Below are positions 14,582-49,583 of a DNA stretch of 64,000 nucleotides, in pieces; the first letter of the stretch is position 1; the number at the start of each line of letters is the position of its first letter. The stretch covers positions 1 to 64,000 of the forward strand of contig JAHCMI010000013.1 of the NCBI GenBank assembly GCA_019192545.1. The letters run 5' to 3'. The notes below the pieces were generated by a model that saw nothing but the letters and a program-made list of their open reading frames with translations, was not told where the DNA came from and made no database searches. Source of the stretch: Rivularia sp. MS3 (GTDB lineage: Bacteria; Cyanobacteriota; Cyanobacteriia; Cyanobacteriales; Nostocaceae). The position numbers were made by a program, and so were the translations under genes.

Positions 14582-14594
14582 TTTAGTATTCCCA
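14582..14594 (-). promoter_or_regulatory. Kinase leader motif (copy c)
   Basis: The minus strand reads TGGGAATACTAAA, 27-39 bp before the remnant's ATG. The 42 bases from motif to ATG match about 33 of 42 positions of the leader of the 24092-27511 kinase. Confidence 0.6.
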
Positions 14595-14703
14595 CATATA
14601 ACTTAAAAATTATATTTTAAGTTTAAGTTTACCTACTGCTTTTGATAGTAGCTTTATAAGTATTGAAACCGAGTGATACGAATGCAGCTTTGTCTTATTT
14701 CTA

Positions 14704-17700
14704 TTAAAGTTGAAGAGGTAATTCGATTATAAATTCCGTACCTTCGCCTAATGTGGAATTACAACTGAGATTGCCTCGATGTTTTTCTACCACTATCGAA
14801 TAGCTAGTTGATAATCCTAACCCCGTACCGCTGCCTACGGGCTTTGTAGAGAAAAATGGATTGAATATATTATTTATAATCGATCTATCAATACCAATAC
14901 CATTATCCTTGATACTAATTAATACATTTTGGTTAGCTTGAAGCGAAGTACTAATAATAATTTTTGGTGTTTTGTCTTGCTTTTCTCGCAAAGCGTCAAC
15001 TGCATTTCCGATAATATTCATGAACACTTGATTTAATTCGGAAGCATAGCAATTGACTTTGGGCAGTTGACTATACTGCTTAATAACTTGAATTTCTTGA
15101 TATTTGGTATTAAATGTAAGTTTATGCTGTAAAACTAGAAGAGTGCTATCAATTCCAGCATGAATATCTACGGGTTTCATTTTGGCTTCATCCAAGCGAG
15201 AGAAGGTTTTAAATGATGAAACTATTTCACGAATGCGTTGCGTACCTATTTTCATTGAATCTAGCAGCTTTGGTAAGTCATATTTGACAAAATCGAGGTC
15301 TATATCAGAAATTTTTGCTTCTATTTCTGGTAAAGTTTGAGGATAAAGTTTTTGGTATAGATTAATTAATTCAATTAACCCTAAAGCATAATCATTCGCC
15401 GGTTCGAGATTACCGTATATGAAATTGATGGGGTTATTAATTTCGTGAGCAATACCAGCTACAAGTTGTCCCAAGCCGGACATTTTTTCGGTTTGAATTA
15501 ATTGAGATTGAGTGCGTTGTAATTTTGCTAAAGTAGATTCTAATTCAGCCGCTTTTTGGGTTACTTCTTCAGTTCTTTGTTGTACTTTTTGTTCTAAAGT
15601 ATGGGAATAGTTATCTAATTGGCTGTAGAGTTTGGCATTCTCTAAAGAAATTGCGGCTTGAGTGCAAAGCAAATTGAGGGTGTTTATGCGATTTCTTGTA
15701 AATGCGCCAATAACCAAGTTATTTTCTAAATAAAGTACACCAACTAATTTACTTCTATCTAAAATCGGCATACACAACAAGCTTTTCGTTTGCTGCTTTC
15801 GGAGATATTCGTCTGTGATAAAATCATTTTCAACGGTGCCGTTGTCTAGTACAACTGTTTTTAAACTTCGTTTAACATAGTTGATTACTGTGTTCGGAAT
15901 ATCTTTGCTGCTTGCAGATGGTAAACCTAGTAGATTTACATCCTGATTGTTTATTGATAAAGCTTCAACAATTAACTCATTGTCTTTATGCAATAGTAAA
16001 GCAGCTTTTTTTGCTCCCGCATTTTCCATAACTAATTGCATTAGTTTAGATATTAATTGTTTTAACTGAATTTCACTTGATAGTGCCTGTGTTGCTTTAA
16101 TAATGCTGGCAAAATCGAGAGCTTCAGAAATACTGCTGCTAGAACGATTAGTATGTATTTGCTGGCTGATTAATACCGATTGATTCAGACTTTCCAAACT
16201 GGTTTTATTTATGATTCGATTGCCCGAATGCTGTGTTTCTAATATTGGGATTAATTGTTTAGTGTAGCGTGTTTCTAAATCATGAATTTTAGCCGAACTT
16301 CCCCATTTTGCATAGCCAAAGTATGCTTTTTGTATATAGCTTTCTGCAATTTTTTCTTTATCCCAATTCAGATAGAATTCGGCAGCTTTTTCGTTAGCAA
16401 GAGCTTCTTCGCAAACAAAATTGTTTTCTTTGGCTCCATTTATAGCTTTGTCATACAGTTCAATTGCTTCAGCTTTATCTCCTAATACTCGATATTTTTC
16501 AGCTTCTACTAAATGGAATTTATGTAGATAATTCGGCGAAGCATTATTAGCCCAATACTGCATTTTTATTTGATTTTGCTCTACCTGCTCGATGATTTGA
16601 CTTTGCTCAATCTTATCTGCACTTTTATATCGAGCCAGTTTTACCAAGGAATCATAGAAATAAAATGAAACGATGCATACCATAGCCACTACACCGTCTA
16701 AATATTCCTGCGCTCGCACTGCATTTTCTGCTGCTGTTTCGTAGTCATGAAATAAATAACAAAGCTTGAGTTTAGCAATATACAGCAATGCTAAAGTTGT
16801 TCTATCATTAGCTTGCTCGTGTACAGATATCATCTGCGATTCATCATAAGCTTCACCAATCAAATTACAGCGATGCTGGGAACGGTTTAATAAATTGAGT
16901 ACAGTTTGCCGCGAAATATGTATCTGATGGAGAATATGCTCTTGCTTAAGTTGTTCTACAGCATCACCATAAACCGAAATTTCTGTCTCCAAGTTTTCTA
17001 ATTCTTTACCTATCAAAATACAGTCGAAGCAATAAAAAGAAGCAGAATATCCAGCAAATTCTAAATCACCTGCTTCTAAACCAACCTGATAAGCTTTGGT
17101 TAGCAAAGGTAGACTTTTGTGGACTGATTCTCGCCAATGTTTAATGAAATTTCCGACTAACAATAAAACTTTTGATTCGATATCTTTGCTGTTAAATTTA
17201 TCAACTAAATTTAATGCAAGTTGACCAAATTGCGTACCAGATTCGATATCATCAACTATACCGCACAAAATAAAACCGTACATTGCATAGCCGAAAGCTG
17301 AAGAAGATGTATTACCAAATTTGATGGATAAATTTACCATTTTCATGGCAATTAAAGGCAATAATTTTGGAAATGCAATATAAGCAGCGGGAGCGACGCT
17401 GGCTAAAATACGCATTGCTGCTGATTGATATGGATCTTCCATCTGTGGAAGATGCAGCAAGTCTGCAATTTGTCTATTTCTTAAGTTTGATTGAGTTTCT
17501 ACTAATGCTTGTTCAAAGTCAGATGGTAATGGCTTTTGGGGTAAATTTATATTTTTATCAATCAGTTTAAGTACGCTCAAAGCAATTGTTATTGCTTCTA
17601 ATAATTTAGTTTGAGCTATATTTCCATGAATTTTAGTGACGTAAATATTCACTTTATCGAGCAGTGTTTTTGCTTTTTGTAACACTACTGTAGAAAGTTG

Positions 17701-20277
17701 TTCTGCTGTATCAAAATCAGTATTTAGATAAGCCGTTTCAGCCGACTCTTCATAAAGTGCTAAAGTCAATTCGTATGAATAATGCCAACCATCTTCTCCT
17801 AATAAATCCCTAGCTACAGCAAAATATTTAAATGCTGCTGCATAAGCTGTAGAAAACTTGGCTTTTTTTCCTGCTTTTAAATTTAACCGAGCTAGTTCTT
17901 CTTTTTGAGCTTTAGTAACAATTAAATCTAATCCAAAATTTAGCTGATTGACAATATCAAAGATGTTTTCTTCTCTTTCTTGAAGTGAAAAGTTTTCTAA
18001 AATAAGTTGACCTAATTTAAAATGAGTAATCTGTTTTTGCTCTTTAGGAATCAGTAAATAAGCAGCTTGCTGAACCCTATCGTGCAGAAACCTATATCCT
18101 GGATTATTAATATTGTGATTAATGTTGACAGCAGCATTTGTATTTAGGCTTTCGTCATAAATATAAAATTTATAAGATTCGTTGGTAGGTAAAATTAAAC
18201 CTGATAGTAAAGCTTTCCACAAAGCATCTACGGTATCGGCTTTACTCTTTTCTGAGATAATTGCTAAAATATCTAAGTCAAATTGATTCCCCACACAGGC
18301 AGCTAACTTTAATATATTTTGAGTTTCGATTGGTAATTTATATAATTGTTGAGTCATTAGCTCAACCACATCATCGGTAACGGCTAATGCTTTTACCTTG
18401 GTGATATCGCATACCCATCCTCCTTGATTTATCCCCTTACAAGAAGAAGATTGAGGGTAATCAAATTTAATTAAATTATCTTCATAAAGCGATTTCAAAA
18501 ATTGCGTGCTAAAAAATGGATTCCCTTGAGTTTTTTGATAAATTAATTGCGTCAGCGGTTGTGCGGTTAATTGCGAACAATTGAGAGTATCGCTAATCAG
18601 TTGATTTAAGCTTTCTTCTTTCAAGGGTGTTAATGAAATTGTGTTAATTATCGCTTCTGCTTTGGCAATTGCAGATAAAGTTAGCTTCAAAGGATGAGCG
18701 GAAAAAACTTCATTATCGCGGTATGCGCCAATTAATAGCAAATATTTACTTTCTGCCTCGCTCATAAGCAACTGCATCAAGTTTAAAGATGCTGAATCAG
18801 CCCACTGTAAATCGTCTAAAAATATTACTAAAGGATGTTCTTTTGTTGTAAAAACCTGAATAAATTTTTTAAATAATAAATTAAATCTATTTTGTGCAGC
18901 AGCACCTGATAATTCAGCAACAGGTGGTTGTTTTCCAATAATTTGCTCTAATTCAGGAATCACATTTACAATGACTTCCGCATTATCCCCTAAAGCCTCT
19001 AAGATATCACTTTTCCAGTTTGATAATCGAGCGTCACTTTCACTAAACAATTGTCCGATCAAATTCCTAAAAGCTTGTACAAAAGCATCTAAAGGAGTAT
19101 TACGATTAAACTGATCGAACTTACCTTTAATAAAGTAACCGTTTTGTTTAACAATAGGTTTATGAACTTCGTTAATAATTGCTGTTTTACCAATTCCAGA
19201 AAAACCAGCTACTAGCATTAATTCGCTTTTATCTGTTGATGCTCTCTCGAATGCTAATAATAATTGTTTAACTTCTTTTTCCCTTCCATACAGTTTTTCG
19301 GGAATAATAAATCTCTCGCAGATATCTCTTTGAGCGATTTGAAAAGATTTTATCTCGTTAGTTTCTTGAAGCTGTCTTAAACAAATTTCTAAATCATGCT
19401 TTAAACCCAAAGCACTTTGATATCTATCTTCGGCATTTTTTGCCATTAATTTCATGACGATATCCGAAATTACTTGAGGAATTTCTTGTTCCCTCTCTTT
19501 AACAAGGAGGTTAGGGTGAGGTTTATTTATCGAAGGAGGAATTTTTGCAATATGACAATGCACCAACTCCATAGCATCATCCGACTGAAACGGTAATTCT
19601 CCAGTTAATAATTCGTAAAAAGTAACACCCAGAGAATAAAAATCAGTGCGATAATCAATTCCACGATTCATCCTTCCGGTTTGCTCTGGAGATATATACC
19701 CTAAAGTTCCTTCCAATACCGACGGATTCATTAAAGTTTGAATTTCTCGATTAAGCAAAGAAGCAATACTGAAATCGATTAATTTAATTTGTTTAGTTTC
19801 AGGATTAATTAAAATATTGGCTGATTTTATATCTTTATGAATTATTCGATGGTGATATAAAGCATCTAAAATATCGCATAAGGAAATTGCTACTTGCAGA
19901 AATTCTTCGAGAAAAATTTTAGTGAAGGCTGATGAGAGGACATCGTTACGAGAATTTGTATATGAAGTTTCGATACTAGTAAAATATTGTTTGAGAGAAA
20001 TTCCTCTTATATCTTCCATTACCAGAAAGTAGCCATTGTGATAAGGTTCTAAGCTATAGGTTTGGATTATTCCAGAGAAATTAATATTCTTAGCTATGCT
20101 GTATTGATTGCGAAATTGTAACAATTCGCTGAAACTAGGATGAGGATTTTTGAGTAGTTTAAGAACTACTGGTTTTTGGTCATATTCTCTAATAGCTCGA
20201 TATACTAAGGTTCTCGAACTATCGTAGAGCATTTCTAAGACATAGTATCCGGAAATCTTAATCTCAGTAGCAAACAT
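14704..20277 (-). CDS. Giant Ser/Thr kinase-ATPase-GAF-histidine kinase (HstK type)
   Basis: An 1857-residue cytoplasmic dual kinase. The Ser/Thr kinase domain (about 8-300) has HKDIKSANI (HKD rather than HRD, 147-149), DFS in place of DFG (168-170) and YISPEQ. The AAA/NACHT-like ATPase has Walker A GFSGIGKTA (about 358-366) and a Walker B-like IFLDDLQWAD. A long helical, TPR-like region runs to about 1350. A GAF domain (about 1380-1530), a coiled coil, HisKA AHEINNP (H1611) and HATPase (GTGLGLSTS) finish the chain; there is no receiver. This order matches the HstK family of heterocystous cyanobacteria. The DFS change is a reason to doubt ordinary Ser/Thr kinase activity, though it may be common in the family. 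It is preceded by the shared leader motif. Confidence 0.93.
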   Translation of the reverse strand: MFATEIKISGYYVLEMLYDSSRTLVYRAIREYDQKPVVLKLLKNPHPSFSELLQFRNQYSIAKNINFSGIIQTYSLEPYHNGYFLVMEDIRGISLKQYFTSIETSYTNSRNDVLSSAFTKIFLEEFLQVAISLCDILDALYHHRIIHKDIKSANILINPETKQIKLIDFSIASLLNREIQTLMNPSVLEGTLGYISPEQTGRMNRGIDYRTDFYSLGVTFYELLTGELPFQSDDAMELVHCHIAKIPPSINKPHPNLLVKEREQEIPQVISDIVMKLMAKNAEDRYQSALGLKHDLEICLRQLQETNEIKSFQIAQRDICERFIIPEKLYGREKEVKQLLLAFERASTDKSELMLVAGFSGIGKTAIINEVHKPIVKQNGYFIKGKFDQFNRNTPLDAFVQAFRNLIGQLFSESDARLSNWKSDILEALGDNAEVIVNVIPELEQIIGKQPPVAELSGAAAQNRFNLLFKKFIQVFTTKEHPLVIFLDDLQWADSASLNLMQLLMSEAESKYLLLIGAYRDNEVFSAHPLKLTLSAIAKAEAIINTISLTPLKEESLNQLISDTLNCSQLTAQPLTQLIYQKTQGNPFFSTQFLKSLYEDNLIKFDYPQSSSCKGINQGGWVCDITKVKALAVTDDVVELMTQQLYKLPIETQNILKLAACVGNQFDLDILAIISEKSKADTVDALWKALLSGLILPTNESYKFYIYDESLNTNAAVNINHNINNPGYRFLHDRVQQAAYLLIPKEQKQITHFKLGQLILENFSLQEREENIFDIVNQLNFGLDLIVTKAQKEELARLNLKAGKKAKFSTAYAAAFKYFAVARDLLGEDGWHYSYELTLALYEESAETAYLNTDFDTAEQLSTVVLQKAKTLLDKVNIYVTKIHGNIAQTKLLEAITIALSVLKLIDKNINLPQKPLPSDFEQALVETQSNLRNRQIADLLHLPQMEDPYQSAAMRILASVAPAAYIAFPKLLPLIAMKMVNLSIKFGNTSSSAFGYAMYGFILCGIVDDIESGTQFGQLALNLVDKFNSKDIESKVLLLVGNFIKHWRESVHKSLPLLTKAYQVGLEAGDLEFAGYSASFYCFDCILIGKELENLETEISVYGDAVEQLKQEHILHQIHISRQTVLNLLNRSQHRCNLIGEAYDESQMISVHEQANDRTTLALLYIAKLKLCYLFHDYETAAENAVRAQEYLDGVVAMVCIVSFYFYDSLVKLARYKSADKIEQSQIIEQVEQNQIKMQYWANNASPNYLHKFHLVEAEKYRVLGDKAEAIELYDKAINGAKENNFVCEEALANEKAAEFYLNWDKEKIAESYIQKAYFGYAKWGSSAKIHDLETRYTKQLIPILETQHSGNRIINKTSLESLNQSVLISQQIHTNRSSSSISEALDFASIIKATQALSSEIQLKQLISKLMQLVMENAGAKKAALLLHKDNELIVEALSINNQDVNLLGLPSASSKDIPNTVINYVKRSLKTVVLDNGTVENDFITDEYLRKQQTKSLLCMPILDRSKLVGVLYLENNLVIGAFTRNRINTLNLLCTQAAISLENAKLYSQLDNYSHTLEQKVQQRTEEVTQKAAELESTLAKLQRTQSQLIQTEKMSGLGQLVAGIAHEINNPINFIYGNLEPANDYALGLIELINLYQKLYPQTLPEIEAKISDIDLDFVKYDLPKLLDSMKIGTQRIREIVSSFKTFSRLDEAKMKPVDIHAGIDSTLLVLQHKLTFNTKYQEIQVIKQYSQLPKVNCYASELNQVFMNIIGNAVDALREKQDKTPKIIISTSLQANQNVLISIKDNGIGIDRSIINNIFNPFFSTKPVGSGTGLGLSTSYSIVVEKHRGNLSCNSTLGEGTEFIIELPLQL

Positions 20278-20308
20278 AGTTATAGTATTAAGTTTTTGAA
20301 GCTTTCAA

Positions 20309-20322
20309 ACTTAGTGTTCCCA
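20309..20322 (-). promoter_or_regulatory. Kinase leader motif (copy a)
   Basis: The minus strand reads TGGGAACACTAAGT, 32-45 bp before the ATG of the HstK-type gene. The rest of the 20278-20606 spacer holds no recognisable gene. Confidence 0.65.
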
Positions 20323-20606
20323 GATTTAGCCTCAAAACTTTAATGTTTATTTGAAAAATATATATTTATTTTTTGCACTTGTATAAAATAGATAAAAAAG
20401 TTGACTTCAACGCAAAAGTTCTCTTTTATTTCTACATATCGGGGTTTGAAATTACTTGGAATAGATTATCTCCAGACAATTTTGTTTTACGGATTAACAG
20501 TATAATTTTTTATAAAAATAAATTGGATTTATTGCCAGCGAACGTACCTTTTCATATTTTCTGAAACCGCTGTATCTGGAAAATATGCGTAGAAATTATA
20601 TAACAG

Positions 20607-21764
20607 TTAATAACCCTTTGAAAAATTGTCAGCTTCTGAATCTACGCTCTCGTTAAGACGACTTGCCAAAACGATCTCAAAAATAGCTCCTTGGGGCTGA
20701 TTATTTTTAACACAAATTTCTCCCCCATGAGCTTCCACCACCATTTTGCAGAAAGCTAAACCTAAGCCTATTTGAGAAATATCTGCCATTGAAGTTCCAA
20801 TTTCATATTTTTCAAAAATCTTTTCTCGCAATGCATCAGAAACACCAGCCCCAAAGTCAATAACCTGAATTTTGCAACTATTAGATGCACTAAATTCGAC
20901 CTTAACTACGATCTGACTATTCTCCGGGGAAAACTTAATTGCATTCGACAAAAGGTTATCAAGGGTTCGATGCATCATTGTGCTATCAACAAAAATTTTC
21001 TTGTTACATTCCTTTGGGAATTTACTTAACAACTGTTGATTTTTTCGAGCCGCGATTGTTTCAAAATTAGATATGGCTGACTGTATAAGCTCGCATATAT
21101 TAATCTCCGTACAATTAAGAGAAAATTTAGCAGATTTAAGCATTGCCATTGTCAGTAAGTCATCAATCAATACCTGTAGTGCTTGTGCTGAAGAATAAAT
21201 TCGAGTTAATTTATGCTGTTGCTTGTGTGCGGGATACTTACCACTTTGGAGAATTTCCACACCCAGCAAAATATCAGTCAGGGGATTTCGTAAATCGTGA
21301 ACTACCATATTTACCATGTCTTCCCGCAGCTTCAGCATGGATTGGAGTTCGTCATGCTGGTGTTTAATTCGCAGCATAGAGTTAACTCTAGCACGCAGTT
21401 CTACACCATTCACCGGCTTACTGATAAAGTCATCGGCACCGGATTTTAGACAGTTAGCTAAATCTTCTTTACTGCTAAGAGCCGTCACCATAATAATTGG
21501 CACCGATTGCCACTTGGGCATTGCTTTAATCTGTCTGCAAACTTCGATACCATCAATCCCCGGCATCATTACATCAAGCAAAATAATATCGGGTTCAAAG
21601 GTGCCCAGAGATAAAATTGCTTCTTCACCATTAGCGATATAGTGCAGTTGATAATCATAATTTTCTGCCCAAGCAGCTTTATTTAAATCAACGCTCAATA
21701 GGGTTTCAATTACATCAAAATTATCAGGCTCATCATCAATAACTAAAATAGATGCTTTTTTCAT
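20607..21764 (-). CDS. Receiver-histidine kinase (REC-HisKA-HATPase)
   Basis: A 385-residue soluble protein. REC (about 5-125) carries the acidic DDE pocket, phosphoacceptor D64 (LLDVMMPG) and K116. HisKA follows with VVHDLRNP (H156) and HATPase with DFGAGVS and GLGLAFC. A receiver placed before a transmitter lets a phosphorelay control the kinase. Its ATG overlaps the stop of the upstream 21761-23410 gene by four bases (ATGA), so the two are translationally coupled and very likely act in one pathway. No membrane or PAS sensor is present: the input is presumably the phosphorylation state of its receiver. Confidence 0.92.
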   Translation of the reverse strand: MKKASILVIDDEPDNFDVIETLLSVDLNKAAWAENYDYQLHYIANGEEAILSLGTFEPDIILLDVMMPGIDGIEVCRQIKAMPKWQSVPIIMVTALSSKEDLANCLKSGADDFISKPVNGVELRARVNSMLRIKHQHDELQSMLKLREDMVNMVVHDLRNPLTDILLGVEILQSGKYPAHKQQHKLTRIYSSAQALQVLIDDLLTMAMLKSAKFSLNCTEINICELIQSAISNFETIAARKNQQLLSKFPKECNKKIFVDSTMMHRTLDNLLSNAIKFSPENSQIVVKVEFSASNSCKIQVIDFGAGVSDALREKIFEKYEIGTSMADISQIGLGLAFCKMVVEAHGGEICVKNNQPQGAIFEIVLASRLNESVDSEADNFSKGY

Positions 21765-23410
21765 AAGGTATTCTCGCGAGCTGCTAACAAGTTTTGAATA
21801 GTGAATGACAACTGTTTGAGCTTAACTGGTTTGTTAAAGTATTCATTGGCTCCAGCTGCAAGACAACGTTCTCGGTTGCCTTTGATTGCTAAAGCTGTGA
21901 AGGCTATGATGGGTAAATCCGCTAAGTTTGGATTGCGACGGATTTGCTGCATTGCTTCCAATCCATTTATTCCCGGCATTTGAATATCCATTACAATCAA
22001 ATCGGGGTTTTTAGCATCAGCTAAATCAATAGCCTCCTGCCCGTTTCTCGCTAAAATCATTTGATAGCCTTTAGCTGTTAGGTAGCCGGAAATTGTAGTG
22101 ATATTAGCTTCGTTGTCTTCAGCTAGTAATATCAAAGGAGATACTGTTTGCTTTTGCTGGTTGGTTTGGATGCTAATGTCCGAGTCAACTTCTAATTCAC
22201 ATTCGTATGGTGTAGCACTATTGTAAGGTAGATCGACTGTGAAACAACTTCCTACCCCTACCTCACTGATAACCCCTACCCTTCCCCCATGAAGTTCAAC
22301 GATACGTTTCACCAGAGAAAGTCCGAAACCCGTTCCTTCATATTTTCGATTCAGATCGCTATCAATTTGCATAAAAGGCTTAAACAACTCGTCGAAATAT
22401 TCGGGATTAATACCAATGCCAGTATCTTTCACAGCAATTCGTAGATAATTTTGGCATAGGGAAGCGCTATCTAGTTGACTGCTTTGGGAATAAAGGCTGA
22501 CTTCAAAAGTAATACGTCCCTTTTCCGGAGTAAATTTAATTGCATTGGTAAGCAGATTAATTAAAACTTGCCGGATGCGTCTTTCATCTATAAACAAGTT
22601 GGGTAAATTTATTGGTAGCTTTGTTTCTATCTGGATACATTTTGAGCGAGCTTGTTGCTTTACAAAGGCTAGACTTGCCTGACAAAGCGGCATGATGGGA
22701 GTGCAGCTACAGTTTAGCTCTATGCTACTTAATTCTATTTTTGACAGATCCAGAATGTCGTTAATTAGTTGAAGTAAATGGGAAGCACTGCGTTCAATGG
22801 TTTGTAATGCTTTGAGTTGTTGGTCGTTTATCTTACCGAAAACCTGCTCTCGTAAACCTTCGTTCATACCCAAAATCACATTAAGGGGAGTGCGAAGTTC
22901 GTGACTCATGCTAGCAAGAAATTGGCTTTTGGCGATGTTTGCTTGTTCCGCAGCTTGTTTGGCTTGCTGTAATGACAGTACTTTAAGAGCTACTTGCTCC
23001 TCTAAATTTTGAGTCAGTTTTCTTAAATGTAAATGCGTTTTAATTCTAGCCAAAACTTCCTGTTCTTGAAATGGCTTAGTAATATAGTCTAATGCTCCTA
23101 ATTTAAAGCCCGTAATTTTACTATCTATATCTGCTAAAGCTGTAATAAAAATTATTGGAATATTGCAAGTTTTAGGATTAGCTTTGATTCTTTGGCAGAT
23201 TGCAAAACCATCCATCCCTGACATGTTTATACCTAATAAAATTAGATCGGGTAGTTTGCTTTCTAACTGTTTTAAAGCTCGTTGCTCATTAGTGGCGATC
23301 GCCACATCATAACCAGTAGTACTAAGTGTTTGAGAGAGTACATCTAAGTTGACCGGAATATCATCCACAATTAATATAAGACCTGTTGATTCTGCTTCTT
23401 CTTGATTCAT
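21761..23410 (-). CDS. Hybrid histidine kinase REC-HisKA-HATPase-REC with inactive first receiver
   Basis: A 549-residue soluble hybrid kinase. REC1 (about 10-130) has the acidic pocket VDD and K112 but reads LILLGINMSGMDG where the phosphoacceptor should be: residue 60 is Gly (GGT) instead of Asp (GAT). A coiled coil leads to HisKA (SHELRTP, H170), HATPase (DTGIGI, GTGFGLS) and REC2 (about 425-545) with an intact D475 (MDIQMPG). The transmitter-REC2 block is strikingly similar to that of the 24092-27511 kinase. The stop overlaps the start of the downstream REC-HK gene. REC1 may act as a phosphorylation-independent binding domain. Confidence 0.92.
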   Translation of the reverse strand: MNQEEAESTGLILIVDDIPVNLDVLSQTLSTTGYDVAIATNEQRALKQLESKLPDLILLGINMSGMDGFAICQRIKANPKTCNIPIIFITALADIDSKITGFKLGALDYITKPFQEQEVLARIKTHLHLRKLTQNLEEQVALKVLSLQQAKQAAEQANIAKSQFLASMSHELRTPLNVILGMNEGLREQVFGKINDQQLKALQTIERSASHLLQLINDILDLSKIELSSIELNCSCTPIMPLCQASLAFVKQQARSKCIQIETKLPINLPNLFIDERRIRQVLINLLTNAIKFTPEKGRITFEVSLYSQSSQLDSASLCQNYLRIAVKDTGIGINPEYFDELFKPFMQIDSDLNRKYEGTGFGLSLVKRIVELHGGRVGVISEVGVGSCFTVDLPYNSATPYECELEVDSDISIQTNQQKQTVSPLILLAEDNEANITTISGYLTAKGYQMILARNGQEAIDLADAKNPDLIVMDIQMPGINGLEAMQQIRRNPNLADLPIIAFTALAIKGNRERCLAAGANEYFNKPVKLKQLSFTIQNLLAARENTL

Positions 23411-23686: not shown

Positions 23687-23700
23687 ATTAAGTATTCCCA
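23687..23700 (-). promoter_or_regulatory. Kinase leader motif (copy f, orphan)
   Basis: The minus strand reads TGGGAATACTTAAT. About 30 bp further an ATG opens only eight codons before a stop. No intact gene follows closely, and the receiver relic lies downstream. Confidence 0.5.
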
Positions 23701-24091: not shown

Positions 24092-27000
24092 TCATAGGCT
24101 ATTCTCGTAAGCGGCTAACAATTGTTGAATGTTGATTGCTAATTGCTTGAGTTTGACAGGTTTGCTGAGGTAATCATTAGCTCCAGCAGCCAGACAACGT
24201 TCGCGATCGCCTTTCATTGCTAAAGCCGTCAAAGCAATTATAGGTATCTTTTCTAAGTTAGGGTTGCTCCGAATTTGCTGCATTGCTTCTATGCCATCCA
24301 TACCTGGCATTTGGATATCCATCAAAATCAACTGAGGCGCTTCGGAGTGGGCTAGAGCAATCGCTTCTTGTCCATTTTTAGCTAACAGCAAGCGATAGCC
24401 TTTCGCTCTGAGGTAGCCCGAAATCGTAATGATATTAGCTTCATTGTCCTCAACCAGTAAAATTAAGTCGGAAGCTCGTTCAACCGAATCGGTTGATTCA
24501 ATACTTAGGGCTTGCTGGGTTTTGATTCTATCAGAAGAAGATGTCTTTTTAATACAAGGTAGATAAATTGTAAAACGGCTTCCAACCCCTAGTTGGCTAG
24601 TTAAACCTACTCGTCCACCGTGGAGTTCTACAGTGCGTTTTACCAAGGCAAGCCCCAAACCGGTTCCCGCATATTGGCGATTCAGGGCACTATCAATTTG
24701 GACAAAGGGTTGAAACAGTTTTTTAGTATCTTTTGGCGCAATACCAATGCCTGTATCAACAACTGAAATTTGGAGAAAATTATCGGATGAATCATCAATA
24801 CAATCTCCCTCGGCAGAACTCTGCGGAACAGTCACTTCTAAAGTGATGCTGCCAGCATCTGGGGTGAATTTAACAGCATTGTTCAAGAGGTTAATTAAGA
24901 CTTGACGGATACGTCGCTCATCAACCAATAAATCGGGTGGTTCGTAGGGAAGTTTAGTTTCTAAATGGATGCGTTTTTTCAAAGCTTGTCGTTTGATAAA
25001 CGCTAAACTTGATTGACACAGTGGAGCGACATTAGTAGGAGTGATATCAAGTTCCAATTGACCTGATTCAATTTTAGCTACATCCAGGACATCGTTAATA
25101 AGTTCGAGCAAATGCGAACCACTGCTTTCAATGGTTTGTAATGCTTTAAGTTGTCGGTCGTTAATCGGGCCAAATACTTTTTCCTGTAACCCTTCGGTCA
25201 TACCTAGAATGGCATTTAGTGGGGTACGAAGTTCATGACTCATATTGGCAAGAAATTCATCTTTAAGCCGGGTAGCGCGGGCTAATTCTTGATTAGATAC
25301 AGCCAATTGCTGATTGCGCTCTGTTAGCTGCTGTTGGGCTTGTTGTCGTTCGCTTAATTGTTGCTGCAACTGTTCAAATAGGTTTGCTTGTTGAATGGCA
25401 ATTGCCAGCTGATTGGCAATTTGTTGTAAGAGTTCTGCTTCCGACTCCTGCCATACCCGTTTTTTCTCACATGCATGGACTACTAAAATTCCCCAAAGCT
25501 TATTGTTATCTCCTGAAGCAACCCATTGATGATTTTCGCTAGTATGCATTTCTTGCAAAATCGGCGCAACAATCTTAGATTTAATTTGACCCTCAATTGA
25601 ATAATGCACTAAGGATTCCGTCCAGATATCCTCTATTACATCAGGTACGATGCGAGGTTTACCCTGACAATAACAATCAAGTATATCTTGCGACCAAAGT
25701 TCGTTGTGCCAATTACAACCTTTTAAGTCAGTAAACTCACTAGATACAGCTTCTTCAACAATTTTGCTTTCACCATCGGCAAAAAATCGAAATATGATGA
25801 CGCGATCGCCATGCATTATATCTTTTACTTGTCGAGTAACTGTTGACAAAATTTCGTCAATATCTAATGATTCTCGAATTTGTTGAATAATCGCTCCTAG
25901 AGCTTGCTGTCGTCGTAGTTGTAGAGCAATCCTAGCTTCGGCTTGCTGCCGTACTATCAGTTCTGACTGAATTTGGTCGTAGAAACTAGCTTGCTGAATA
26001 CCGATTGCAAGTTGGTTCGCTAGTTGCTGAGTCAAATCAATTTCGGATTGCTCCCAGTGGCGAGTTGTAGCACATTGATGAATGCATAGCAAACCCCACA
26101 ACTGTTTGCCACAAAGTAACGGCATTACTAAATTAGCGCGAACTTCAAACTGACTTAAAACATCGCTATGACAATTACTTAGTTCATTGTTGTAAATGTC
26201 ATCGACTGCATAAAATCTGCCTTTAGAATAATTGGCACAAAGAGATGAAAAGTTACGACCAAAACAGTGAACTACTGAGGAAAATCCTTGTACAACTGAT
26301 TCAGCCACAAATTCGCCGTCGTCAAAGTTAGAGTCCGGATAAAACTTAAAAATGCCAACTCTATCGGCTTGAATCACTTGACGGATTTCTTTGCAGGCAG
26401 TATCGAAAATGGTTTGCAAATCGAGAGATTGTCGAATCCGCTGGGTGATTTCTCTGAGTAGTTTCTCTCGTTCTACCTGCTGACGAATAGTTTGCTCGGC
26501 TTCTTTACGTCCGGTAACGTCAAAGCGAATAGCTAGATACTGAAAAGGTTGTCCTTGTTCGTCTAAAAAAGGGATAAGAGTACTTTCTACCCAATAAAGA
26601 CTGCCATTCTTATTCCGATTACAAATTTGACCTCGCCAGATTTTTCCACTAGCGATATTAGCCCACAAGTCTTTAAAAAAACTGCGGGGATGATAGCCAG
26701 AATTGAGAATTCGATGAGTTTTGCCAATCAGTTCGTCGCGGGAATAGCCAGAGATGTCGCAGAAGCGATCGTTTACGTAGGTAATTGCTCCTGCGGTATC
26801 AGTAATAGCAACTATCGCAGATTGATCGAGGGCAAACTTGAAATCGGATAGTTCTTGAATTAACTGTTGTCGTTCTAACTCAACTTGCTTGCGCTGCTGA
26901 TTTATCAACGCATCACAGCCAGCTTCAACAGAATATTCTTGATTTTCTTGTAAGCCAATTTCTGTGCGATCGCGTTGATGAAAAAGTTGCAGATTCTCCA

Positions 27001-27511
27001 GTAAAATTGCTGTTTGAGTGCAGAGAAAGTTGAGTTTGAGGATGCGCTTATCCGTGAAGACACCAGCAGTTAAATGGTTACTTAAATACACAATGCCGAA
27101 CAATTTACCTTTGTTTAACAGAGGTAAACATAAAAGGCTACAAGGTTTTTCCTGAGAAAGATAGCTATCAATAACGGGTAAATCTGTATTAAAGTCGTCA
27201 ATTAATACCATTTCTTGGGTATTTTTGACATACTCAATTAACTGAATAGGCAAATTGGAATTAGCTTCAAGGGGTTCCGAACAAAGTTTTATGCTTTCAG
27301 AATTTGCAATAACTTCAACATGCCATACTCCATTGCAATCGGGAAGGATTAAGGAACAGTAATCTCCTCTAGAATTTTGCAAAATCAATTGGGTAATTTC
27401 AGGCAGAAGTTGATTTAATTGTGTAATATCCGAAAGTAATTGAAAGGCTTTGAAAATAGCCGTAAAATCTATAGGTTCTTCGTTGATAGAATACTCAACA
27501 ATACTAACCAT
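24092..27511 (-). CDS. GAF-PAS-GAF-GAF hybrid histidine kinase, candidate cyanobacteriochrome
   Basis: An 1139-residue soluble sensor. GAF1 spans about 20-175, PAS about 225-340, GAF2 about 360-505, GAF3 about 545-712, HisKA with SHELRTP (H759), HATPase to about 985, and REC about 1013-1135 (D1065 in MDIQMPG). GAF2 has the NCHSDVL ... FEVRANLVMPLL ... LWGLLCIHQC pattern of bilin-binding cyanobacteriochrome GAFs, with Cys447-His448 at the canonical attachment site. GAF3 has VHY there and lacks the Cys. No second Cys in DXCF position is seen in GAF2. GAF1 resembles the GAF of the HstK-type neighbour, and the PAS is nearly the same as one in the 42502-44985 kinase. Light sensing is inference from these residues. 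Confidence 0.92.
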   Translation of the reverse strand: MVSIVEYSINEEPIDFTAIFKAFQLLSDITQLNQLLPEITQLILQNSRGDYCSLILPDCNGVWHVEVIANSESIKLCSEPLEANSNLPIQLIEYVKNTQEMVLIDDFNTDLPVIDSYLSQEKPCSLLCLPLLNKGKLFGIVYLSNHLTAGVFTDKRILKLNFLCTQTAILLENLQLFHQRDRTEIGLQENQEYSVEAGCDALINQQRKQVELERQQLIQELSDFKFALDQSAIVAITDTAGAITYVNDRFCDISGYSRDELIGKTHRILNSGYHPRSFFKDLWANIASGKIWRGQICNRNKNGSLYWVESTLIPFLDEQGQPFQYLAIRFDVTGRKEAEQTIRQQVEREKLLREITQRIRQSLDLQTIFDTACKEIRQVIQADRVGIFKFYPDSNFDDGEFVAESVVQGFSSVVHCFGRNFSSLCANYSKGRFYAVDDIYNNELSNCHSDVLSQFEVRANLVMPLLCGKQLWGLLCIHQCATTRHWEQSEIDLTQQLANQLAIGIQQASFYDQIQSELIVRQQAEARIALQLRRQQALGAIIQQIRESLDIDEILSTVTRQVKDIMHGDRVIIFRFFADGESKIVEEAVSSEFTDLKGCNWHNELWSQDILDCYCQGKPRIVPDVIEDIWTESLVHYSIEGQIKSKIVAPILQEMHTSENHQWVASGDNNKLWGILVVHACEKKRVWQESEAELLQQIANQLAIAIQQANLFEQLQQQLSERQQAQQQLTERNQQLAVSNQELARATRLKDEFLANMSHELRTPLNAILGMTEGLQEKVFGPINDRQLKALQTIESSGSHLLELINDVLDVAKIESGQLELDITPTNVAPLCQSSLAFIKRQALKKRIHLETKLPYEPPDLLVDERRIRQVLINLLNNAVKFTPDAGSITLEVTVPQSSAEGDCIDDSSDNFLQISVVDTGIGIAPKDTKKLFQPFVQIDSALNRQYAGTGLGLALVKRTVELHGGRVGLTSQLGVGSRFTIYLPCIKKTSSSDRIKTQQALSIESTDSVERASDLILLVEDNEANIITISGYLRAKGYRLLLAKNGQEAIALAHSEAPQLILMDIQMPGMDGIEAMQQIRSNPNLEKIPIIALTALAMKGDRERCLAAGANDYLSKPVKLKQLAINIQQLLAAYENSL

Positions 27512-27536
27512 ATCACTGAAATCCTAATAGTTATGG

Positions 27537-27550
27537 ACTTAGTATTCCCA
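27537..27550 (-). promoter_or_regulatory. Kinase leader motif (copy b)
   Basis: The minus strand reads TGGGAATACTAAGT, 26-39 bp before the ATG of the GAF/PAS kinase. The whole 42-base leader is similar to that of the kinase remnant (copy c). Confidence 0.65.
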
Positions 27551-34388: not shown

Positions 34389-35834
34389 ATGAATCAAGCA
34401 CAAATCCCATCATGGCAAAAGGTTCGCGCTACATTCCAACAAATTTGGGGCTATGAAGATTTTCGTTCACCTCAAGGCGAAATTGTTCAAAGTCTACTGG
34501 CGAAAAAAGATGCATTAATCATTATGCCTACCGGCGGAGGTAAATCAATTTGCTTCCAACTTCCCGCACTTTTACAAACTGGTTTAACTTTAGTGGTTTC
34601 TCCCTTAGTTGCACTAATGGAAAACCAGGTACAGGAATTAAAAGAACGAAAACTTTCGGCAGCACTAATACATAGCCAATTATCTGTTTCTCAACGCCGT
34701 CAAACCCTACAAGCGTTAGAAAGACAGCAGTTGAGATTACTTTACCTGTCTCCAGAAACTTTACTGAGTCCCCCAGTATGGGAAAGATTATCTCACCCAC
34801 AACTGGAAATAAATGGCTTGATACTGGACGAAGCTCATTGCTTGGTACAATGGGGAGATACATTCAGACCGGCATATCGAAGATTAGGGGCAGTTAGACC
34901 AGCGCTACTTAAGACAAAAAGAAGAGGAACAAAAATAGCGCTAGCCGCTTTTACTGCCACCGCCGACCCTTTAGCCCAAACTGTAATTTTAGAAACTTTA
35001 CGACTACAGCAACCTGCTATATTTAAGCTGAATCCTTATAGAAATAATCTTAACCCGAACGTCCGGATTATTTGGACTCCCCAAGGAAGACAACAACAAT
35101 TATTAAAGTTTATTCATAAAAATCAATATTCTTCGGGATTAGTCTACGTTCGCACGCGAAAGGATAGCGAGAATTTAGCGGCATGGTTGGCACAAAAAGG
35201 TCATAAAACAGCTAGCTATCATGGTGGATTAGCTGCCGAAGTTAGACGCGAGATTGAAACTAACTGGTTAAATGGAAAAATACTCTTTGTAGTTTGTACA
35301 TCAGCTTTCGGTATGGGAATTAACAAGCCCGATGTCCGATGGGTGATTCACTTTCAAGCGCCGTTATTGTTATCGGAATACGTTCAGGAAATTGGACGTG
35401 CAGGAAGAGACGGAAAATCAGCACAAGCACTAACATTAATTAGCGAACCTACCGGATTTCTGAATCCAGAAGACAAGCAAAGACAGAAATTTTTTGAAGA
35501 AAAGCTGCGAGAGCAACAGCTAAAAGCCACACAATTAATTAAAAAATTACCGCCTGTCGGAGAAGTCGAAGCAGTAGGGCAAAAAATTCCCGATGCTGCT
35601 TTAGCATTGTCTTTGCTGCATAGCATGGGTAAATTAAAGTGGATCGATCCTTTTAATTACATTATTCAGAAAAACTCACAAAAGAAAAGCAATCAGCGAT
35701 CGCACCCCCGAAATCAAATGCGTGAGTATCTAACTACAAAAAAATGTCGCTGGCAATTTTTATTAAATGCCTTTGGATTTGAAAAAGAAGCAGCAAATCT
35801 AAGCTGCGGGCATTGCGATAATTGCCGGAAGTGA
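34389..35834 (+). CDS. recQ: RecQ-family ATP-dependent DNA helicase (short form)
   Basis: A 3'-5' DNA helicase of 481 residues for recombination and repair. Helicase motifs run in order: PTGGGKSICFQLP (Walker A), SPLVALMENQV, LDEAHCLVQWG (DEAH and aromatic-rich loop), FTATADP, YVRTRKDS, FGMGINKPDVRWVIH and EIGRAGRDG (arginine finger). The C-terminus ends in a zinc-binding region CRWQFLL ... CGHCDNC. The winged-helix is reduced and the HRDC domain is absent, so this is shorter than E. coli RecQ (609-610 residues). ATG at 34389 is preferred to 34356 because it starts MNQAQIPSWQKV, the usual helical N-terminus. Confidence 0.93.
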   Translation: MNQAQIPSWQKVRATFQQIWGYEDFRSPQGEIVQSLLAKKDALIIMPTGGGKSICFQLPALLQTGLTLVVSPLVALMENQVQELKERKLSAALIHSQLSVSQRRQTLQALERQQLRLLYLSPETLLSPPVWERLSHPQLEINGLILDEAHCLVQWGDTFRPAYRRLGAVRPALLKTKRRGTKIALAAFTATADPLAQTVILETLRLQQPAIFKLNPYRNNLNPNVRIIWTPQGRQQQLLKFIHKNQYSSGLVYVRTRKDSENLAAWLAQKGHKTASYHGGLAAEVRREIETNWLNGKILFVVCTSAFGMGINKPDVRWVIHFQAPLLLSEYVQEIGRAGRDGKSAQALTLISEPTGFLNPEDKQRQKFFEEKLREQQLKATQLIKKLPPVGEVEAVGQKIPDAALALSLLHSMGKLKWIDPFNYIIQKNSQKKSNQRSHPRNQMREYLTTKKCRWQFLLNAFGFEKEAANLSCGHCDNCRK

Positions 35835-36936: not shown

Positions 36937-36937
36937 T

Positions 36938-41674: not shown

Positions 41675-41711
41675 AGGGTATGTAATTATCAAAATATATT
41701 ATTAAGTGAAA

Positions 41712-42414: not shown

Positions 42415-42501
42415 ATTTATCTGATGTTGGGTTACGACACGATAAATACAATTTTCGTTACAAATCAATTTTTTTCGCGTCTAACCCAACCTACTCATTA
42501 A

Positions 42502-44985
42502 CTATTTATAAACACACTGTCTTATTGGAATCGTAATTATAAACTTGGTTCCTTCTCCGGGTGCGGAAACACATTTTAAAAAACCACAATGTTTTTCTAC
42601 AACAACTTGATAGCTAATTGATAATCCCATGCCCGTACCTTTTCCTACAGCTTTAGTTGTAAAAAATGGGTCAAAAAGTCTGGTTTTTATGTCTTCGGAA
42701 ATTCCCTTACCATTGTCCGAAATCGAAATTTGTACTTGCTTACATCCGATTAATTCTGTTTTGATGCAAATAGTCGGAAGATTCTCATCCCAAACTCTTT
42801 CTTCTAATGCATCAAGTGCATTCGCTAAAATATTCATGAACACCTGATTTAATTGACCAGCATAGCATTCTATCTGCGGTAAATTACCATAATCTTTGAT
42901 AATTTCAATTCTAGGGCGTTCGACTTTAGGTTTGATGCGGTGTTCTAAAATCATCAAAGTACTATCGATTCCTTGATGAATATCAACTTCTTTCATCTGG
43001 GCTTCATCCATGCGGGAAAATGTACGCAAAGAAGTTACTATTTCACGAATTCTTTGCGCTCCAACTTTCATCGAATTTAAAAGCTTGGGTAAATCTTGGA
43101 CTACAAAATCTAAGTCTAATTCTTCAGTTAGTTCCTGTATTTCTGATGCAGGCTGAGGATATTTCTGACGATAAATTTCAATGATTTCTAATAGACTTTG
43201 AGCGTAATTGTTGGCATGACTAAGATTTCCATAGATAAAGTTAACGGGGTTATTTATTTCGTGAGCGACACCTGCCACTAGTTGCCCCAACCCAGACATT
43301 TTTTCGCTTTGTACTAGCTGTGCTTGAGCTTTTTGTAGTTCTGATAGAGTAGTTTCTAAGTCTTGTGCTTTTTTATTTAATTGCGTTTCGGCTTGTTTGC
43401 GAGCAGTAATATCGTTACGAATAGCAATATACTGCTGCGGTTTGTCTTCTGGATTTAGAATTGGCACGATAGTTGTTTCTACCCAGTAGAGGCTTCCATC
43501 TTTAGCACGGTTTTGAATTTCTCCCCGCCAAACTTTACCGCTACTGATTTCTTTCCACATCTGGGTGAAGAAAGATTTAGGATGGTAGCACGAGTTGATA
43601 ATTCGATGATTTTTACCGATTAATTCTTGGCGATTATATTGAGATATTTCACAAAATTTATCGTTAACATATTCAATATTGCCATTTTTATCTGTAATTG
43701 CAACAATAGCAGATTGATCTAAAGCGAATTTAATATCAGCAGATTCTTTTAAAGAATTTTGTAATGCTATTTCAGCTTGTCTGCGTTCGGTAATATTTAA
43801 TGCCGTAGCTACAAGTCTATATACTTTTCCAGAATTATCTTTTAAAGGATTGATAGTATTTAACCACCAAGTTTGTTGATTTTTAAAAGTTACAGATTGT
43901 TCAAAGGAACAAGATTTACCAGTTTCTAAACATTGACGATAATTTTGAGATAATGCAACACCTTCGACTTCTCCAAACAGTTCTTCCGGAGTTTTACCGA
44001 TAACCTGGGTTCTATTTAAACCGCTACTGATTTCTGCGCTTGTATTTACTCCCGCATAACGAAAATCGCCATTCTCAGCAACATCGATAACAATTAAAGC
44101 GTTGTCAGCACCATCGTAAACTGTGCGAAGAAACTGCTCTTGCTTTTGTAATTGTTCTTCAGCTTGCTTACGTTCGGTAATATCTGATGCCATTGAAGCA
44201 ATACCGACTATTTCACCATTAGCAGCTATCAACGGATAGTTATACCATTCACAAATAATTTTTCTACCATCTTTAGTCAGATTCTCATTAGTACTGAGCA
44301 TCCTTTGTTTTTGATTAACAAATTCATTGAGGATTGTTTCCAAGCTGGTTTTGAAATCGTCAGTTACTAAAAACTCAAAACTACGACCTAAAACTTCGCT
44401 TTTGCTATATCCAAAAATCTGTTCTGCGGCTTGATTCCATTCTTTAATTTCAAACTTACGATTCCACTCAATTACTGCTAGGGGAGTTTGTTGAACCATC
44501 AATGCTAAACGTCGCTGCTGAGATTCTATTAGTTGAGCTTGTTGTAATTTATGGGTGCTGATATCTTCAATGCGACAAAGCATACCGCTAATTTCTCCAG
44601 AGGCATTAATTAAAGGGTTTTTGCGGATATCTAACCACATTTTCTCGCCAGAAGCTGAAGTTAATATTCTTGTATGTTGAAAACTATTATTGTTTTCGAT
44701 TACATGGCGATCGCCTGCAAAACTATCACTTGCAAGGCGATTATTCAAAAAGTCGAACATGAGATTATTCAAAGGTAATTCGTCATCCGTTTTACCAATA
44801 ATCTGATGAGGAGAAGTTAAACCAATAGCTTTAGCAAAAGCTAAATTACAACCTTGAAAAACTAAATCGTTATTTTTCCAATATATTAATTCTGGTAAAT
44901 TGTCAATTACCAATTGAGATGTAGGTAAAGAATTTACTGCTTTTTCGTTATGGGATTGTAAATACTTAAATTCTGCCGGTAGCAT
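42502..44985 (-). CDS. Multi-PAS sensor histidine kinase
   Basis: An 827-residue soluble kinase with four PAS/PAC units (about 25-150, 158-283, 286-410 and 418-540, each ending in a D-I/L-TxRKQAE-type signalling helix). A coiled coil leads to HisKA AHEINNP (H575) and HATPase (SDNGKGIS, GTGMGLSIS). There is no receiver, so phosphate must go to a separate regulator. PAS4 (ALDQSAIVAITDKNG ... HPKSFF ... WVETT) is nearly a copy of the PAS in the 24092-27511 kinase. The transmitter is of the same AHEINNP type as the HstK-like gene and the 45341-49525 kinase. It starts 29 bp after the shared leader motif. No transmembrane segments; ligands unknown. Confidence 0.92.
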   Translation of the reverse strand: MLPAEFKYLQSHNEKAVNSLPTSQLVIDNLPELIYWKNNDLVFQGCNLAFAKAIGLTSPHQIIGKTDDELPLNNLMFDFLNNRLASDSFAGDRHVIENNNSFQHTRILTSASGEKMWLDIRKNPLINASGEISGMLCRIEDISTHKLQQAQLIESQQRRLALMVQQTPLAVIEWNRKFEIKEWNQAAEQIFGYSKSEVLGRSFEFLVTDDFKTSLETILNEFVNQKQRMLSTNENLTKDGRKIICEWYNYPLIAANGEIVGIASMASDITERKQAEEQLQKQEQFLRTVYDGADNALIVIDVAENGDFRYAGVNTSAEISSGLNRTQVIGKTPEELFGEVEGVALSQNYRQCLETGKSCSFEQSVTFKNQQTWWLNTINPLKDNSGKVYRLVATALNITERRQAEIALQNSLKESADIKFALDQSAIVAITDKNGNIEYVNDKFCEISQYNRQELIGKNHRIINSCYHPKSFFTQMWKEISSGKVWRGEIQNRAKDGSLYWVETTIVPILNPEDKPQQYIAIRNDITARKQAETQLNKKAQDLETTLSELQKAQAQLVQSEKMSGLGQLVAGVAHEINNPVNFIYGNLSHANNYAQSLLEIIEIYRQKYPQPASEIQELTEELDLDFVVQDLPKLLNSMKVGAQRIREIVTSLRTFSRMDEAQMKEVDIHQGIDSTLMILEHRIKPKVERPRIEIIKDYGNLPQIECYAGQLNQVFMNILANALDALEERVWDENLPTICIKTELIGCKQVQISISDNGKGISEDIKTRLFDPFFTTKAVGKGTGMGLSISYQVVVEKHCGFLKCVSAPGEGTKFIITIPIRQCVYK

Positions 44986-45013
44986 AAGCTTATTTTAAAC
45001 GCATTACTAATAA

Positions 45014-45027
45014 ACTTAGTGTTCCCA
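45014..45027 (-). promoter_or_regulatory. Kinase leader motif (copy d)
   Basis: The minus strand reads TGGGAACACTAAGT, 29-42 bp before the ATG of the four-PAS kinase. It is identical to copy a. The rest of the 44986-45340 spacer holds no gene. Confidence 0.65.
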
Positions 45028-45340
45028 TATTGGCTTTATAAATAAACAGTCAAGCAATCATATCTTATACATTGACAATAAACCGGATTTATTAATTGTA
45101 TATCAAGAGAAAAGTGTTTTTACTATAGTAATCTTAGTGAATACGTCTAGGTAGGTAGACTTCGTTTATGTAGTAATACCTGGTGCCATATTAATAACAA
45201 AATTCTGATGAATCATTTAGCATTGCGATAAAATAAGAAACCGGCGTTTATTTATGCTTGATGACAAAAATATAATAGATGTGCGAGTTAATACTTATTA
45301 TAATTAAGAAAATCAACAATCTAATTTAATCTAGATCGAT

Positions 45341-48300: not shown

Positions 48301-49525
48301 TATCTTCAACTGTTGCCAGCACTCCTACTATATTTCCCTGTGAATCGCGCAAGGGAATTTTGTTAGTATCCAACCAAACTTGTTTACCATCTGCTTGTTG
48401 CTTCTTCTCGACAATATGTAATTCTGGGATGCCAGACTCTATGACTCGCTTATCCCATTCTCGATAAAGTTCGCACTGTTCTTTTGTTTCGTACAATTCA
48501 TAATCAGTTTTGCCTCGGATTTCCTCTACGGAACTTAAACCCCATACATCAGCAATTTTTTGATTGCAGCCAAGAAAAATACTATTGCAATCTTTCCAAA
48601 AAATAATTTGAGGGATGCTGTCTACTACTAACTGTAAAAATTTCTTTGACTCTATCAATTCTTCTTGAAATTGATGACGAGAAACTATAACTCCCAAACA
48701 TTGAGCAGCAATTTGTAAAATTAACTTTTCGCTATCTAGCCATTGACGCTCTTTGCTACAGCTATCGAAGCGAATATATCCCCAAAAACTGCCTGCGATC
48801 TGAATTGGTATTACTAAAATTGAATTAATATTTGCAGCTTCTAAATCTTGCCGTTCGGAATCAGGAAAATCATTTACAGAGCCTGCAATTATCTCTTCTT
48901 TCACAAGAATAGAATGCCATCGTGGAAAAATATCGCATTCTGCTTCAAATTGATTATTTGACCAACTTTTATTAAAATTATTCGTTACTATAGAAACTCG
49001 ATCTACTTTCACCGCACTTCCTAAATCCCTTAAAGTATGATTAATGGATTCGGTAAAATTGCTGCTATTTCCGATATTATTTATTGCTTTAATAACACTT
49101 TTAGCAAATTCATCTTGAGAATGAGAAGCGGTTATTTCTTTAATAGTACCTACGACGAATTGATTTCCCGCATCATCATATAATAAAGATTTTTTTGTCG
49201 AAACAATATAAACTATTCCTCGGGCATCTTTAAAATATCCTTTATCTTCATAGCTCATACCTGAAGTGAATATTAATTCATCTTTCTCCCAGAAAATATC
49301 GGCTTGTTCGTTTGAGAAAAATTCGTAGTCAGATTTACCAATCAGTTCTTCTCTTTGATAACCCGTCAACTGACAAAAAGCATTATTAAGAAATATCCAG
49401 TTATGTTTTCGATCTTTGACAAAAATTGGGTCAGATACACTATTGATTATTTCAAGCAAAAAACTTTGAGAAAGGTAATTCCCAGAGTTATCTGCTGGTA
49501 GATAGGAGTTCATTGGCGGAGTCAT
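45341..49525 (-). CDS. Seven-PAS plus GAF sensor histidine kinase
   Basis: A 1394-residue soluble kinase. PAS (about 17-130), GAF (about 135-290), then six more PAS units to about 1085, a coiled coil, HisKA AHEINNP (H1137) and HATPase (DNGYGIP, GTGLGLSMS). There is no receiver. Two internal tandem duplications are plain. The units starting LSANVPGMLYQF and LAANVPGMLYQF are one pair. The units with ASIDGILVVDE-type cores (AAIDGILVVDENQN and ASIDGILVVDEYRE), each followed by GxTFERY and YFRDITERK, are the other. The PAS set suggests integration of several redox, oxygen or small-ligand cues, but no heme or flavin residue can be assigned by eye. Confidence 0.92.
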   Translation of the reverse strand: MTPPMNSYLPADNSGNYLSQSFLLEIINSVSDPIFVKDRKHNWIFLNNAFCQLTGYQREELIGKSDYEFFSNEQADIFWEKDELIFTSGMSYEDKGYFKDARGIVYIVSTKKSLLYDDAGNQFVVGTIKEITASHSQDEFAKSVIKAINNIGNSSNFTESINHTLRDLGSAVKVDRVSIVTNNFNKSWSNNQFEAECDIFPRWHSILVKEEIIAGSVNDFPDSERQDLEAANINSILVIPIQIAGSFWGYIRFDSCSKERQWLDSEKLILQIAAQCLGVIVSRHQFQEELIESKKFLQLVVDSIPQIIFWKDCNSIFLGCNQKIADVWGLSSVEEIRGKTDYELYETKEQCELYREWDKRVIESGIPELHIVEKKQQADGKQVWLDTNKIPLRDSQGNIVGVLATVEDITERKQVEEALAQNEAFLRTIYDGVELGIVVYEVTKDNNIHYFGINKATELVSGLSNQQVVGKAPSKVLGEVFGKEIEQRNQDCLLKGKPITFEETLRLEDKEILLLTTLTPLSNDSGRVYRIISTSTDITAQKQAEATLRESEEKFKKLSANVPGMLYQFKIDADGSMSFPYASPGSYELLNIQAEDIQAESNLFFSMIHPEDYKTFDTCLKNSAKTLEPFYWEGRLSKSSEQIQWMKAASRPQKQSDGSIIWNGFITDITHLKQTEKALQSAYDEMESLVLIRTKELTKTNKVLQAEIEERKNTEAKVQKLAANVPGMLYQFQLCADGSMTFPYVSSGCYEIYDLKPEQIEADASLIFSRAHPNDLKAFKMSMEISVKNVEPWEHEGRIVLPGGNIKWIKSRARPEKLQNGTILWHGFVLDITERKQAEKALLLSNAMLQAQQEAAIDGILVVDENQNILSCNQRFVELWQIPQSVINTKDENQFLVSIVDKFTNVGKFINEVENLSNDVEKSIRDEIDLGDGRTFERYCAPISSLKGEYFGRVWYFRDITERKLAEQSLLRTNSILQAQQEASIDGILVVDEYRESISYNQRFLELWEINRSVIDTGKHEQIFAAMLEKLDKPEEFVSTLEYIFKYPEKSCRNEIYLKNGKTFERYIASVNSLDGNNYGKIFYFRDITERKQAEAKLRQQTQELENTLLQLQRTQVQLIQSEKMSSLGQLVAGIAHEINNPVNFIDANLIYTQEYFEDLLKLIEIYQRNFPESIEAKEFIQEIEFDYLLEDLPSIIKSMKTGAERIAQIVLSLRTFSRLDEAELKKVDIHESIDSTLMILQNSLETQPHRAAIIITKEFGDIPLIECYAGKLNQVFLNILNNAIDALEEAIKNNQISENEYPQIRILTKLIGQNIVQISIIDNGYGIPEDNLSRLFDPFFTTKPVGKGTGLGLSMSYQIIVEQHDGQLNCISTLGEGTEFQIQIPVSCHHIAM

Positions 49526-49571
49526 CTATTGCTAATCAGCTTGATAATTGCTGCTTGTATAGCCTCATCTC

Positions 49572-49583
49572 CTATTATTCCCA
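49572..49583 (-). promoter_or_regulatory. Weak kinase leader motif (copy e)
   Basis: The minus strand reads TGGGAATAATAG, 47-58 bp before the ATG of the seven-PAS kinase. Only the first eight bases match the consensus strictly, and spacing is longer than in the other copies. Confidence 0.35.

Follow-up and report, generated by a model that had tools for sequence, protein, structure and literature searches.

The J-Box is an extended -10 element of the SigJ-dependent hormogonium promoters of Nostoc punctiforme, SigJ being the sigma factor that activates genes of motile filaments, i.e., hormogonia (Gonzalez et al., 2019; PMC6495340). It is present in 93 of the 118 promoters of three SigJ clusters, the gvpA start lies 10 bp from the centre of aAtacT, and pilB is preceded by J-Boxes in many cyanobacteria (PMC6495340). 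The consensus, GGGaAtacT, is also printed in PMC7204071, and the three G of the core are invariant (PMC6495340; PMC7204071; PMC11407516). Moreover, a start site with a J-Box one off from the consensus was lost in a sigJ deletion (PMC11407516), beside which another J-Box case is given in PMC12188702. The cbSTKIII dual kinases are the second system relevant here; Zhang et al. (2007; PMC2176072) named Alr2258 as HstK and reported domain shuffling, and a common promoter is not mentioned in the passages of that article consulted.

In the window, by which we mean the whole stretch of 64,000 nucleotides of Rivularia sp. MS3 DNA that was analysed, the following kinase genes and remnants (hereafter called by the position of their start) were identified:

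14704..20277, minus strand: HstK/cbSTKIII-type dual kinase, 1857 aa (Pkinase, AAA_16, GAF, HisKA, HATPase)
24092..27511, minus strand: chimeric kinase, probably HstK-derived, 1139 aa (protein and leader comparison)
42502..44985, minus strand: PAS/HisKA/HATPase kinase, 827 aa (head not HstK-like)
14235..14555, minus strand: HstK head remnant, 106 aa (hmmsearch against HstK heads, E 2.4e-6)
14553..14594, minus strand: box of the remnant, perfect 12-bp inverted repeat and ATG (inverted repeat seen in the sequence)

Like the cbSTKIII/HstK proteins (PMC2176072), the product of 14704-20277 carries an N-terminal Ser/Thr kinase (STK) domain, a GAF domain, and C-terminal HisKA and HATPase domains. Unlike them, kinase 27511 is without the Ser/Thr kinase and AAA part, and a domain scan of 24092-27511 gave no Pkinase match, hence no N-terminal STK domain.

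The initial annotation had reported a shared motif before three intact kinases and one kinase remnant, and this was borne out. On the minus strand, TGGGAAYACTAAGT is exact at 20309-20322, 27537-27550, and 45014-45027, and recurs with one mismatch at 14581-14594; from the motif end to the ATG there are 31 nt (20277), 25 nt (27511), 28 nt (44985), and 25 nt (14555). These exact copies are the only three in the genome (9,193,454 bases in 174 contigs), against a chance expectation, at a GC content of 36.4%, of about 0.001 per window and 0.2 per genome (hand arithmetic); with at most one mismatch, 13 sites were found genome-wide versus 7 for the reversed pattern. A supposed orphan copy at 23687-23700 is indeed present, with two mismatches to TGGGAAYACTAAGT and its nine-base core unbroken, and probably precedes a decayed HstK head; both inexact copies, at 14581-14594 and 23687-23700, stand before broken gene heads. 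The weaker copy proposed before 49525, in turn, was at chance level: 49570-49583 has three mismatches to the motif, as have 15 sites in the window (shuffled mean 10.6, sd 3.25), and a profile search using related leaders ranked it below matches of E 5.9.

The inner nine bases of the motif, GGGAAYACT, are the published J-Box core, of which the window holds five:

20313..20321, minus strand: J-Box core GGGAACACT, before the HstK-type kinase 14704-20277; predicted start near 20305
27541..27549, minus strand: J-Box core GGGAATACT, before the chimeric kinase 24092-27511; predicted start near 27533
45018..45026, minus strand: J-Box core GGGAACACT, before the PAS kinase 42502-44985; predicted start near 45010
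14585..14593, minus strand: J-Box core GGGAATACT, before the HstK head remnant
23691..23699, minus strand: J-Box core GGGAATACT, before the probable decayed HstK head

The predicted starts 20305, 27533, and 45010 were placed by hand from the published J-Box spacing (PMC6495340). The resemblance to the SigJ J-Box promoters of N. punctiforme comprises the core GGGaAtacT, its orientation, a weakly conserved upstream region, and a box before pilB, whereas the common extended flank of the kinase leaders sets them apart (PMC6495340). Upstream of the core, most columns in the profile of 61 strict leaders are rich in A/T and carry little information, apart from some signal at -17 and -11/-10, in agreement with the weakly conserved AT-rich -35 region of J-Box promoters; likewise, both the window kinases and the leaders of their relatives have the box in forward orientation close upstream of the gene. 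GGGaAtacT would here carry a lineage-specific flank, with T before it and AAGT or AAAT after it.

We regard the motif as very probably the -10 element (J-Box) of a SigJ-type promoter, through which SigJ would switch on the kinases in hormogonium differentiation, with most copies common by descent and the 44985 box belonging to a separate gene. From the published spacing, transcription by SigJ-RNA polymerase is expected to begin about 7-8 nt past the core, so that the 5' UTR at the three intact kinases would measure about 22-28 nt (by hand), and SigJ would induce kinases 20277, 27511, and 44985 during hormogonium differentiation; recognition by SigJ, the start sites, and hormogonium expression are what we infer from the box. 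Among the roles suggested earlier for the motif, that of a promoter or transcription start fits best, its core being the SigJ J-Box, and support for an operator was not found. Among the papers listed by literature searches with the motif strings, none was on cyanobacteria by title, and among those listed by phrase searches none bore on the motif by title. As signalling targets of SigJ, the hmp and ptx systems are named (section 7 of PMC6495340), and dual kinases are not named in the passages of that article consulted; in the literature searched, dual kinases with J-Boxes were not found stated, and the supplementary regulon lists of PMC6495340 may record them. The element itself is known; the dual kinases are new as its targets.

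Across the Rivularia genome, the GGGAAYACT core occurs at 105 sites versus 41 for the reversed control. One form, TGGGAATACT, stands 39 nt before the ATG of the best pilB match, which scores below the cut-off of its model. When 100 of the 105 core sites were crossed with 139 of the 150 HATPase matches (11 of those with the lowest scores were omitted), nine cores lay before or within same-strand kinase frames, compared with none after flipping the strands and with 1, 2, 2, 2, 3, and 4 in six coordinate shifts; the enrichment before kinases for which a test had been proposed is thus seen in this genome. Two of the nine are the window remnants, which stand before the next intact kinase, and the other seven belong to 20277, 27511, 44985, and the kinases on C111, C112, C13, and C91. 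From core end to ATG there are 29 nt at C111, while the core lies 70 nt from a GTG at C112, 113 nt from the start at C13, and 132 nt at C91, so that the last three, at 70 nt or more, could reflect chance placement. An eighth core-bearing kinase, on C166, was found via its protein. Considering the six HstK-type genes examined in this genome, a strict core precedes three (20277, C111, C166), a relaxed core one (C93), and neither form the remaining two.

It is also conceivable that another sigma factor, such as SigF, reads the box, or that a transcription factor binds it. Two sigma genes of this genome exceed the cut-off of NF005644 (the NCBIfam SigF model) and neither exceeds that of TIGR02980, both being only candidates for SigJ; the presence of two SigF-type genes would suit such a reader, and SigF has been proposed as a possible reader of J-Boxes where SigJ is absent (PMC6495340). 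Nevertheless, deletion strains of N. punctiforme tie the box to SigJ (PMC6495340; PMC11407516), and we consider a different reader improbable.

Regarding the origin of the copies, a profile of 80 HstK-type leaders with their first codons matched 20277 (E 6.2e-9), 27511 (E 6.3e-9), 14555 (E 1.9e-8), and 23700 (E 6.9e-6). With a downstream-only leader profile the matches were weak (E 0.007-0.013) and surpassed by one at 35168, on the other strand and inside an ORF (E 0.0035); consequently, leader homology rests on the full profile together with the protein evidence. At the protein level, residues 14-191 of kinase 27511 share 54% identity with residues 1382-1559 of the C111 HstK, and its first residues (MVSIVEYSINEEP) look, by eye, like HstK starts. 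For kinase 27511, the best explanation is descent from an HstK through loss of the Ser/Thr kinase and AAA part, with the leader and first codons kept; its present form resembles a fusion of an HstK leader and start to the HstK GAF region. The stretch following 23700 aligned with HstK heads at E 2.3 and is probably another HstK head remnant. Judged by these comparisons, the box is common by descent to the intact HstK 20277, the chimera 27511, the remnant 14555, and probably the remnant at 23700. The earlier view that the motif is not a by-product of coding homology accordingly does not hold for 27511 and 14555, nor probably for 23700, given the leader profile and protein matches. The suggested mark of gene-head exchange is upheld in part: HstK-type heads keep their leader, and 27511 has the look of an HstK-like join.

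Kinase 44985 behaves differently. Its leader matched the HstK leader profile weakly (E 0.039), in the box part, and the gene appears to be a separate one that bears a J-Box of its own. Among 11 relatives, out of 80 matched loci, a strict core stands just before the start codon in two; a same-genus orthologue has it with its first base 43 nt ahead of the ATG, and one MAG relative 24 nt before an in-frame ATG. The strict core was absent in nine of the 11, two of them Nostoc at 52-53% identity.

In a wider sampling, the exact 14-mer was found in 88 of 192 Nostocaceae genomes, at 137 places (hand count), and its reversed form at 23 places in 23 genomes. Of 30 forward places (30 genomes, one place each), 18 were followed 10-60 nt downstream by the ATG of an ORF of 100 aa or more, versus none of the 23 reversed places, all of which were included. 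A Pfam scan of ten proteins encoded behind boxes, nine from relatives and one (L051) from this genome, left seven without a match and gave a kinase domain in none (one of the ten, L026, with dCache and HAMP, is incomplete at the locus end); the box is therefore not restricted to kinases.

Each of 80 family genomes (80/80) gave matches to the Ser/Thr-kinase head of 14704-20277 at E of at most 0.001, of which the weakest are other kinases. Taken from the top of the head-match list, with a few matches skipped, 108 Nostocaceae HstK-type leaders (28 loci and 80 fetched stretches) contained a strict core in 75 cases and a relaxed core in 96; locus L103 was excluded because its frame was not found. 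In the 80 leaders of this set with a strict or relaxed core and a spacing of 25-38, the distance from core end to ATG is 29 nt in 35 leaders and 30 nt in another 16 (51/80 together), and Shine-Dalgarno-like four-mers precede the ATG in 30, against a shuffled mean of 7.6. Outside Nostocaceae, 17 HstK-type loci had no strict core and one relaxed core, and seven further in-family loci comprised one strict (at -83), one relaxed, four with none, and one unread. Furthermore, in a tree of 57 heads, most box-bearing genes fall in one supported clade, whose 33 rows are 20 strict, 9 relaxed, and 4 without the core. Conservation at related kinases, which the initial annotation had proposed to verify by leader alignment, was thus observed, and the motif also occurs before non-kinase genes.

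These data bear on whether the copies are a mere by-product of the common descent of HstK-type leaders, devoid of present function. The leader homology among 20277, 27511, 14555, and 23700 would be expected on such an account, as would the finding that two of these four loci are broken genes. However, the core is kept in most sampled Nostocaceae leaders at near-constant spacing, coincides with a published promoter box, and also precedes non-HstK genes, which makes this account highly unlikely.

The box tail is often repeated in inverted form ahead of the ATG, and at the 14555 remnant this repeat is perfect over 12 bp (z -3.8), which raises the alternative of a regulatory RNA leader whose conserved unit is a hairpin masking the ribosome site. 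Over 80 leaders, own arms matched better than permuted arms in 500 of 500 permutations (0/500 reached the mean). In the covariation test, made on 35 leaders all with a spacing of 29, 227 of 280 cells are paired if G-U counts as a pair, a number reached in 2 of 2000 permutations that leave relatedness and leader subtypes uncontrolled, and sliding the arms gave lower counts (44-132). By Watson-Crick pairing alone, in contrast, 206 of 280 cells pair, which was reached in 56 of 2000 such permutations, and the most variable stem pair of these equally spaced leaders showed no association. A stem of at least seven Watson-Crick pairs is present in just 18 of the 80 leaders, folding was no better than shuffles in four of the five window leaders, and Rfam gave nothing at gathering thresholds within 11000-52000. 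Moreover, a SigJ start would fall downstream of the left arm. The results for the 5'-UTR element suggested earlier are mixed and mostly weak, and we hold a regulatory RNA leader to be very improbable.

A combined scheme, which we also consider very improbable, would place an expanded and often tandem dual-kinase family of Nostocaceae under the hormogonium sigma factor and let the box serve as a hairpin arm as well: in transcripts reading through from the gene next to it, this arm would mask the ribosome site, while those initiated at the box would lack the arm and be translated. The late genes of phage T4 offer a parallel, with read-through transcripts masked and promoter-started ones translated.

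In brief, under the SigJ-type promoter reading, a large and little-studied group of cyanobacterial dual kinases would come under the likely control of a regulator of motile-filament development, and such control would predict, in a testable way, when and in which cell type these kinases act. It would also explain the puzzling common motif, as a promoter box that remains with the gene heads during rearrangement of the kinase bodies.

The kinase at 24092-27511 (-) is a mosaic, in which the leader and the GAF region are HstK-like (HstK denoting the cbSTKIII-type dual Ser/Thr-His kinase), and the PAS region (aa 206-385) shares 50% identity with aa 400-563 of the neighbour kinase 42502-44985 (-). 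At the remnant of an HstK head, a 12-bp inverted repeat without mismatch (14553-14594 (-); arms AATACTAAATCC/GGATTTAGTATT; -12.9 kcal/mol, z -3.8) lies immediately 5' of the ATG.

Between the HstK gene (14704-20277) and the probable decayed head at 23700, a receiver/His-kinase gene pair with overlapping ends was located (20607-23410 (-)). Moreover, an additional protein-kinase-like ORF was detected at the window edge (543-2864 (-)), with an E of 6e-9 against the HstK head profile.

In relatives, HstK-type genes occur in same-strand rows, with a spacing of ~5.5 kb:

Genome G029, contig C1, 6.940-6.969 Mb, one strand: HstK-type row of loci L177, L195, L196 and L243
Genome G302, contig C6, 2.244-2.283 Mb, one strand: HstK-type row
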